64,000 bases of DNA from Odontesthes bonariensis (Eukaryota; Chordata; Actinopteri; Atheriniformes; Atherinopsidae). The notes beneath the pieces are model-generated. The model was not told where the DNA came from. It made no database searches and was given only the letters and a program-made list of their open reading frames with translations. Both the position numbers and the translations under genes were made by a program. Shown in pieces: positions 12,989-16,000 of the stretch (positions are counted from its first letter, which is position 1; each line of letters begins with the position of its first letter). Location: NCBI RefSeq assembly GCF_027942865.1, contig NC_134509.1, forward strand, positions 9,445,754-9,509,753, given 5' to 3'.

Positions 12989-13098
12989 TTATTCAACTTC
13001 CTGCTCCACCACGGTGGTCTTCTCACTGACATAGATGCCATCCAGGAACTTCCTGATGTCCTTCTTCCTGACTGTGGTGGCCTGTTGGATCAATGCCG
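12989..13098 (-). CDS. rpl9: rpl9 distal alternative terminal exon
   Basis: A second copy of the rpl9 last coding exon lies 665 bases downstream of the first. It has its own TCTGCAG acceptor (13099-13105) and the same phase, and reads [19 protein letters not shown] then [17 protein letters not shown] and stop. The proximal copy (13764-13870) reads [19 protein letters not shown] then [16 protein letters not shown] and stop. Both keep an open frame with mostly silent differences, so both look selected. The canonical poly(A) signal lies only behind this distal copy. Confidence 0.85.
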
Positions 13099-16000
13099 CT
13101 GCAGAGAAAGAGAGGGCAGAGTGTGAGGACCGGATGTCGTGCAACACGGAGGCTGCTGCCACAACATGCTCAGCTACCGGGGCCTGGTGGCAAGCGTGAA
13201 ATGAGAAGAGATTCTTTTAGTCAAAAAGGATAAAACAATGTTAGGAGTGAAGCTGTTCGGACGAGTGTTCAGAGAAAAAAAAACTAAACTGTGAAGTTAC
13301 ATTACAAAGAAATAACATGCAGTCAGAGCCAACACCACGAGGCCGAGCAGCAGGTAAGTCTGAACGGTGTCATGAATCATTCCCTAAAATTATTCTGATG
13401 TGCTCACAAACATTTGGCCTATGAACGTGTCAGAGTTGAGTTCTGCAACAGCATTCATGCTTCTTAGTCTTTCTGTAGATAAGCTAGCATTTCAGTTGCG
13501 ATGTGAGATTTGTTTCCCTTTTTCCCGTTAAAGCTCAAGTTTGACCTGTGAAAATAAGCCTTAAATCAAATGTCTTGGATCAACCAGTGTGAAACGTGAA
13601 AAGAAAACCTCTCTAAACAGAAAGCAGTTAAAAGAAGGCACCCAGGACAGACGTGTTAAGAAGATGCAAAGAAAAACAAAACAGTGTCCTCCCCCACTCC
13701 GTGGAGGACACGCAGGCGGCGTCGACGGCATCATCTAACCTCTAACAAGTGCAGATGTAACTTTTACTGCTGTGGTTCCACTACTGTTCCCTTCTCAGAC
13801 ACGTAAATGCCGTCCAAGAACTTTCGGATATCCTTATTTTTGACTGTGGTGGCCTGTTGGATCAGAGCAGCTGGAACAGAAGAGTTGGGGTGATAAGCAG
13901 CACGTCACACAAAGCTGTTCTGGGATGTTGTGTTGGCACAACCAAAAGAAAGTAACCAAACTTCACTGAAACAAACTAATCTGTAACGGAATACAAATAT
14001 GAGCAGATCTTACATGAATATTTTTTTTGGGAAGGAAAGAAAAAAAGTCATGTTATTTCATAAAAACTACAGGCAAAAATAAACAACGTGATGATTCTGA
14101 GCATCTCTGTGATTGAACCCATTCATGTTTTGTTTGACAGAATAAGAAGTTATTTCACACCTAATGTAAGGTCTAAATCATATGACGGGAGTTCTGCAAA
14201 CAAAACTAACCGTCAAAACCTGCTTTATCTCAATTAACTGTTTAAAATGCCCGAGCAGAGACCCAGAATGGTCGAGTTCAAGCTTATATTGGTCAAGTCA
14301 TCGAAAATCTGATCCTTGGAGAAAAGCTGCGGCGAAAAAGGTGGACAAACATACCTGAGTTTGACACCAGCTCAATGTCATTGCCCTCCAGGACCAACTC
14401 GTCTTTCTGGGCAGCTGAGACGGAACACATCACACCTGAGAGCAAAGGGACAGAGCACTGTGCTTTACTGTGCGAGTGTATACAATGCAGATGCAAAAGA
14501 CATTTTAACATGTAGAGGAGAGTACGCTCAGATATCACCGCAGTAATCTACAAATGTGGTCCTTTTATTACATTTCCTTCTGCCCCAGGTTCTTTTTCCT
14601 CAAGAAAATTAAGCCTTTCTAAGACTACCAATTCAAACAGTCACATCTATTTGTACCTCATGTTCAGACGATACACCAAATCCACAGAACAACTCTGATC
14701 TAATCAGGCACCAACAAAGACAGCCACCTCCTCAGTCTCTTTACTGTATAAAAAAAACCAGGGCTCTCACAATAAATGCACATTTGTAACTGCGGCATCG
14801 ACAGGCCGGCAGCAGGGGATGTCACACAGCCAGAGAGTTAACTGGTTTTATTCTTCATAATTCAATGTGGATGCACTGAGAAAAAAAACAGAACAAAAAA
14901 AAAAAAAAAAAAAAAAAACACTCCAACATAATATTAAACTTAGAGATCAACCAGCCGATGGTTTGCTGAGCCCAGGAAACATTACGCCTAAGGTCTCTTC
15001 TGCCTGGTCCCTCACTGCTAATGTCAGGTGCAGCTGGATGGTCACTGGCCTGCTGGCTCCCACTGCCTACACCCCGGCACAGCCCTGGTACTTTAGCACA
15101 AAGTCTACTAACATTAGGTCTATGGTCACCGTTCGAGTCACGTGCCATAAATGTACTTCCAAAGAGCTGGCGTGCTGGGATTTTTGTAACGTGTCACAAC
15201 CTCAATGAGATGCATGTATGAAAAACTAAGAGGGAAGAGTGTGCGTGTTGGTCTGTCTCTGCAGGCAAAAGACAAAGTGAAACGCACATTTAAACATTTG
15301 CGTATGCACATCGTACTTCCTGCAGTGTAGCACAGCCACTTTGTGAGCAGCAACGCCCGCTGTTTAGAAAATAAGGAGTGCAGCGAGCGGTTACGGTGCT
15401 GTGTGGAGGTCACCATTTGATCACAAAAACTAAAGCGGAGAGCATAATCGCTGGTGTCTCCAGCGGTCTCGGCCTCTTCACATTTCTACATCCATCACAC
15501 AGCAGGCCGAGGACAGAGGACTTCATGTTGACCAGTATCAGCCAGCATCTTGAAGCCTTCACCCCAGTGTTGCCGTCTAACAGGCACCCAACTGCCCTCC
15601 TGTCTCTGGAAGACCAGCTGAGGAATTCAGTCAGTCGGAGGGAGGAAGGGGAACGATGGAGATATGAGCTTAAAGGTGAACTGAAATTAATCAGCAGATG
15701 CTGCCTGCAGCCCTGTCGAACCTCGCTTTCACAAACCGGTTAAGAGGTGAAATCCAGTTCTGTCACTTGTCCAGGTTGCCCCCCCAACTCTTAAACAGGA
15801 AGAGGTGTCAGCAGCTTCTTACATACTTAGTGACCAATCGTACCAGTGTACTTTGAAGTCAAAATAAGTCAAGGTCAGCAACTGTGACTACGTTTAGGCT
15901 TTGCTTTCTTCTTCTTTTTTTTTTGTGTTTCACTTCAACAGCTACAGCTACTCCATGATGTGTAGCGGACTCACCCCCCCTCATTCTGACGCGGCGGATG

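Follow-up and report, generated by a model that had tools for sequence, protein, structure and literature searches.

The stretch of DNA analysed here, referred to as the window throughout, comprises 64,000 nucleotides from Odontesthes bonariensis and carries, on its minus strand, an rpl9 gene in which five shared coding exons are preceded by an inferred 5'UTR exon and followed by two last coding exons, a proximal one (P) and a distal one (D) (Table 1). With one last exon, the gene consists of 7 exons, and with both, of 8; taken from the inferred start site to the inferred poly(A) signal, it would span approximately 5.7 kb. Joined to P, the five shared coding exons form a single open frame of 192 amino acids that ends at the stop codon of P; joined to D, they form a frame of 193 amino acids that ends at the stop codon of D.

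The encoded protein is the ribosomal protein uL6 (RPL9) and has the two domains of this family: the Pfam model PF00347 (Ribosomal_L6) matches two stretches in each isoform (scores of 109.5 and 107.7 bits; cut-off 27). All three prokaryotic L6 models from NCBIfam score below the cut-off against the rpl9 proteins, and the D isoform aligns with eukaryotic uL6 chains from the PDB across nearly the full length.

Table 1. Exons and processing signals of rpl9 (window coordinates; a slash marks the position of cleavage at a donor)
Feature	Position	Strand	Basis
Inferred 5'UTR exon 1, presumably TOP-like, CTTCCTTTCCTC...GCGAG/gtgagg	18649..18673	minus	Read from sequence; start site inferred
First coding exon, which contains the ATG; 46 nt coding	17986..18031	minus	Donor score 8.7
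Coding exon, 116 nt	17756..17871	minus	Joined open frame
Coding exon, 96 nt	16326..16421	minus	Joined open frame
Coding exon, 133 nt	15975..16107	minus	Joined open frame
Fifth coding exon, 81 nt; donor CAG/GTATGT common to both last exons	14355..14435	minus	Donor score 9.9
Proximal last coding exon P, 107 nt, 35 residues, ancestral-type C-terminus	13764..13870	minus	Acceptor score 8.6
AGTAAA, non-canonical poly(A) hexamer over the P stop	13763..13768	minus	Sequence scan
Possible weak donor GAG/GTTAGA, 24 nt past the P stop	13734..13742	minus	Score 5.9; the five authentic donors score 8.7-11.2
Distal last coding exon D, 110 nt, 36 residues, derived C-terminus	12989..13098	minus	Acceptor score 12.9
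AATAAA over the D stop	12988..12993	minus	Sequence scan
Canonical AATAAA, probable gene end for both mRNAs	12959..12964	minus	Use inferred

The rpl9 gene lies head to head with a plus-strand gene, with about 540 bases from the inferred rpl9 start to the ATG of the neighbour at 19210 (18673-19212). The first exon of this neighbour appears to encode a lias-like mitochondrial leader, and the gene is presumably lias. Downstream of rpl9, the exons of an apparent rfc1 gene occupy positions 2800-10200 of the minus strand; among the four rfc1-like open reading frames scanned, one contains a BRCT domain above the cut-off, one contains an RFC1-type AAA+ lid below the Pfam cut-off, and two are unmatched. 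The window also includes four long, near-perfect hairpin (foldback) elements, namely, 24170-24913 (arms of 347 nt, 97%), 46086-46749 (274 nt, 98%), 57846-58376 (232 nt, 97%) and the composite 56470-57743 (arms of 232, 170 and 101 nt with 91%, 94% and 86% complementarity, respectively), the last two of which are close together, as well as a weaker hairpin at 32781-32919 (79%). The long hairpins presumably belong with foldback or MITE-like elements, which they resemble. Positions 12000-18500 contain 21 inverted repeat pairs, many of them A/T runs; one such pair (13880-13903 with 15769-15792, 24 nt, 75%) is located directly upstream of the P acceptor. No Rfam family is detected in the window at the gathering score and, in particular, no known RNA gene is found between or around the exons.

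Tandem duplication of the last coding exon

An earlier note on this DNA had described two last coding exons of rpl9 that are located 665 nt apart, each with its own acceptor and in the same phase, and that encode complete C-termini differing at KN/RK and in the tail (GTVVEPQQ in P and TTVVEQEVE in D), most of the changes being silent. Our analysis reproduces this description in full; the acceptors are AG, both exons are in frame from the donor at 14355 and end in a stop codon, and the replacements are K168R, N169K and G185T, with the tails PQQ in P and QEVE in D. P and D are homologous exons arranged in tandem within one gene: when each is taken with 30 nt of the adjacent intron, their local alignment scores 91, whereas none of 200 shuffles exceeded 26, and the copies are 76-78% alike. 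With the shared phase, separate acceptors and separate stop codons, either P or D can terminate the frame. Within codons 158-189, 17 of the 32 differ between the copies, 14 of these silently. In a tblastn search of the 64-kb window, P and D were matched and the next matches had E values of 0.97 or worse; a third copy of the last exon was not found within the window.

The flanks of P and D show no similarity above that of shuffled sequences (106 of 200 shuffles were as good upstream and 172 of 200 downstream), so that the duplication looks old and unlike an assembly artefact. Duplicated segments are, in general, common in draft assemblies, and nothing specific to this locus was found to favour an assembly or haplotype artefact or a retrocopied fragment; against such an origin stand the divergence of the copies, the dissimilar flanks and the start of each copy at an acceptor of its own, given that a retrocopy would be expected to bring along neighbouring exons and would not be expected to possess an acceptor. 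We therefore reject the artefact and the retrocopy, which we consider extremely improbable.

A run of 24 nt that covers codons 161-167 (13069-13092 in D and 13841-13864 in P) is identical in the two copies, with silent sites elsewhere near saturation. The identical run of 7 codons is only weakly unusual (p = 0.034 by permutation; a smaller figure, 0.0003, applies to a tract that was picked after it had been noticed) and could be explained by a conversion tract or by splicing-enhancer constraint.

Selection on both copies

To assess the constraint on the two exons, we compared the numbers of silent and replacement differences. Across codons 158-184, the copies differ at 16 nucleotides, 13 of these differences falling in codons with an unchanged residue, and 2 residues are replaced; the resulting estimates are pS of 0.67, pN of 0.06 and a corrected dN/dS of about 0.04, a rough value because the exon consists of only 35-36 codons. 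When the 16 differences were placed at random (codons 158-183), two or fewer replacements were obtained in none of the 100,000 trials. We further simulated a history in which one copy drifts neutrally and the protein sequence of the other is kept constant, with 3000 runs per mutation level: with 10 proposed mutations per copy, 0.7% of the runs gave two or fewer replacements (P = 0.007), and with 20, 30, 40, 60 or 80 proposed mutations, 0 of 3000 runs did so in each case. The model of a single drifting copy is thus rejected (P = 0.007 or less), and the scarcity of replacements suggests, under this simple model, that both copies have been constrained as proteins for most of their separate history. 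Purifying selection on both P and D, as judged from two copies in one genome, is well supported. The view of P and D as intact, maintained copies accordingly finds backing in the codon-level constraint and the in-phase AG acceptors, along with the published hints from tilapia and medaka that are considered below.

These observations bear on the possibility that, in practice, a single copy is used, the other one being an intact, rarely spliced relic that has survived by chance or through occasional gene conversion. A short conversion tract would account for the identical stretch at codons 161-167 (p = 0.034 in the run test), and the undistinguished acceptor of P as well as its lack of a canonical poly(A) signal would also fit; however, outside this stretch, the silent sites are near saturation and replacements are few, both acceptors are intact, and gene conversion would wipe out silent differences as well. 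A relic of this kind appears unlikely.

Ancestral and derived C-termini

For comparison with other uL6 proteins, we surveyed the best five sequences from each of several PDB searches (63 to 99 sequences matched in each), which amount to 18 distinct uL6 sequences, many of these being near-identical versions from one species; we take the set to include 7 vertebrate, 1 Drosophila, 5 budding-yeast and 5 plant or green-lineage sequences. The best match, 7oya, presumably from zebrafish, has a uL6 chain of 192 amino acids and carries KNKD and SEKGTVVE, like P. Position 169 is occupied by N in all 18 displayed sequences and by K in D. At position 185, T is present in D and in Drosophila, and G in the other 17 of the 18 displayed sequences; the R of D at position 168 is shared with the displayed yeast sequences. 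The P-like residues in the PDB relatives indicate that D is the derived copy and P the ancestral type. Judging from these sequences, the N169K change in D is a replacement of a residue that is otherwise stable among the displayed relatives, in an otherwise tightly conserved exon. The tail of D is longer and more acidic than that of P.

Splice and polyadenylation signals

Donors, acceptors and poly(A) signals were scored with a simple weight matrix and generic signal lists, and only the ranking of the scores is meaningful. The acceptor scores are 12.9 for D, 8.6 for P and 4.6 to 12.8 for the four other acceptors in the coding region of rpl9. In the interval 14354-12989, five further AGs that are presumably unused score 8.1 to 10.1; on this score, therefore, the D acceptor is distinguished and the P acceptor is not. 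A branch-point-like motif is present 24 nt upstream of P and 26 nt upstream of D, a pattern that is absent from one authentic rpl9 intron. The intron that starts at donor 14355 is 484 nt long to P and 1256 nt to D. In tests for RNA structure, a whole-length duplex pairing the intron upstream of P with the sequence upstream of D was no stronger than those of shuffled sequences (92 of 200 as strong), in a coarse comparison that could miss a short docking site, and the fold around the P stop was no better than those of shuffles either (170 of 200 as good).

The statement in the earlier note that a canonical poly(A) signal is lacking for P holds with two amendments: the variant hexamer AGTAAA overlaps the P stop, and a second AATAAA (12993-12988) precedes the distal signal (12964-12959). 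D thus has two AATAAA hexamers, and P only the variant over its stop. Neither AATAAA nor ATTAAA was found in a sequence scan between P and D; an ACTAAA is located there, at 13221.

By GC3, D (0.75) is close to exons 1-5 (0.78), with P lower at 0.57, which faintly suggests strong expression of D. The codon-use scores relative to exons 1-5 are, however, similar for P (-0.09) and D (-0.04) and, in both cases, below those of the shared exons (-0.004 to 0.14); the closeness of P to the donor and its ancestral sequence speak for P rather than D.

A model for the use of the two exons

Taken together, the exon anatomy, the open frames, the codon constraint and the ancestral type of P lead us to regard as quite probable a scenario in which the last coding exon of rpl9 underwent an ancient tandem duplication in the fish lineage, and in which each of the present copies is used, one per mRNA. 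Splicing from the donor at 14355 would reach either the weaker acceptor of P nearby or the stronger, more distant one of D. If the P acceptor is chosen, the P stop would precede D, which would then turn into 3'UTR; if the D acceptor is chosen, P would leave as part of the intron. Because P lacks a good donor of its own, no special device for mutual exclusion would be needed. The D mRNA would end at the AATAAA approximately 25 nt past its stop codon; a compact 3' end is usual for ribosomal-protein mRNAs. The P mRNA would most likely run through to the AATAAA of D, giving it a 3'UTR of roughly 0.8 kb, or else be cut early at AGTAAA. Such read-through, which the earlier note had envisaged, is possible, and AGTAAA and the weak donor at 13740 are alternatives that it does not list.

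The latter donor underlies a variant in which P is a stop-bearing cassette exon, either skipped or included, whose donor at 13740 joins the D acceptor, such that D becomes a spliced 3'UTR with the shared poly(A) signal; the protein outcome would be unchanged. The site is the best donor-like sequence after the P stop, and a junction 24 nt past the stop would fall short of the distance of about 50-55 nt that is required for nonsense-mediated decay. Nevertheless, its score is well under the range of the authentic donors and it has a T at +3, which is rare among donors, so that we consider a cassette exon very unlikely.

Under the preferred scenario of one last exon per mRNA, both last exons are likely to be spliced into mRNA, and one rpl9 gene probably makes two slightly different uL6 proteins, one with the ancestral C-terminus of P and the other with K168R, N169K, G185T and the longer, acidic tail of D. 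The likely outcome is a pair of near-identical proteins.

Hints from other fishes

NCBI assigns the suffix X1 only where more than one protein model exists. A peptidomics table includes the entry 'PREDICTED: 60S ribosomal protein L9 isoform X1 [Oryzias latipes]' (PMC6473766); the RPL9 gene of Nile tilapia is described as having 8 exons, 5781 bp and a product of 192 amino acids (PMC7072992), and mouse Rpl9 as having 7 exons (PMC2267211). The tilapia exon count and the medaka isoform name fit, without proving it, a duplicated last exon that may be shared among percomorph fishes, and we treat them as a hint; other variants, for example, in the 5'UTR or at the N-terminus, could be the source of both the extra exon and the name. 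In the size comparison given for tilapia, zebrafish, medaka, fugu and human, zebrafish alone differs (PMC7072992), so that the percomorph RPL9 proteins included there have 192 amino acids, the length of the P isoform, and a D-type protein of 193 amino acids does not figure in that comparison; the statement on size is at odds with the 192 amino acids of the 7oya chain if that chain is from zebrafish. A search for homologues among genome contigs yielded 2 of 103 candidate stretches, both prokaryotic L6 genes, and none of the 3 candidates in viral contigs.

Comparison with known systems

Terminal exons duplicated in tandem are already known from other genes: in humans, 77 of the 236 tandem duplicated exon substitution events swap the C-terminal region (PMC9741552). 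The rpl9 exons resemble the 3' exons of TPM1, lev-11 and Tm1 that are covered in the same paper, in which tandem homologous exons, used one per mRNA, yield proteins that differ at the C-terminus; in contrast to these tropomyosin genes, rpl9 encodes a core ribosomal protein, and its two last exons are presumed to be used one per mRNA; the string 'ribosom' is absent from the main text of that paper. Exons 3 and Ab of U2AF1 are similar in being duplicated, in the unequal strength of their 3' splice sites and in the either/or choice between them, but that pair is internal and the exon with the better signal is repressed, whereas the rpl9 pair is terminal and includes stop codons (PMC5224494).

Two uL6 proteins within one organism are also found in yeast, where uL6A and uL6B differ at 4 residues, two of which (188 and 191) are in the C-terminal tail; the yeast proteins are, however, encoded by two separate genes, as opposed to one gene with two last exons in the fish (PMC6678285). 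In Arabidopsis, the uL6 paralogues RPL9B, RPL9C and RPL9D act through dosage and are mutually replaceable, with no duplicated last exon in the description given (PMC8647923). That a ribosomal-protein gene can be alternatively spliced is already known, from Drosophila rpL22-like, according to a title cited in the same article, likewise with no duplicated last exon in the description given (PMC8647923). A parallel in the same gene is a tissue-dependent difference at the 3' end of mouse Rpl9 transcripts in seminal vesicles, which was detected with microarray probes; unlike the fish case, it rests on probe evidence only, and no duplicated exon is part of its description (PMC2267211). Among the matches listed in a search of open-licence PubMed Central text, there was no report of a ribosomal-protein gene with a duplicated last exon, and the tail peptide strings of P and D were not found in the main text of open-licence PubMed Central papers; gene databases may already hold these rpl9 isoforms without comment.

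Implications for ribosome heterogeneity

The protein uL6 is located in the GTPase-associated centre of the ribosome, and yeast depends critically on it for efficient assembly of 60S subunits; the two yeast isoforms were considered most likely to have the same function (PMC6678285). By this analogy, near-redundant use of the P and D forms of uL6 would be the default expectation, and functional ribosome heterogeneity arising from the rpl9 isoforms is speculative. A far-reaching extension, namely, a switch conserved in many spiny-rayed fishes that selects the last exon of rpl9 by tissue or stage, places an N169K uL6 near the GTPase-associated centre and thereby creates two classes of 60S subunits from one gene, strikes us as a rather long shot.

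Ribosome heterogeneity is often sought among paralogous ribosomal-protein genes, the promoters of which also differ. If both last exons of rpl9 are used, this gene would provide two versions of a core 60S protein that are expressed from one promoter and are only a few C-terminal residues apart, so that dosage would be separated from protein identity. The case also carries a caution, in that gene-level counts and single-isoform annotation can mask variants of ribosomal proteins.
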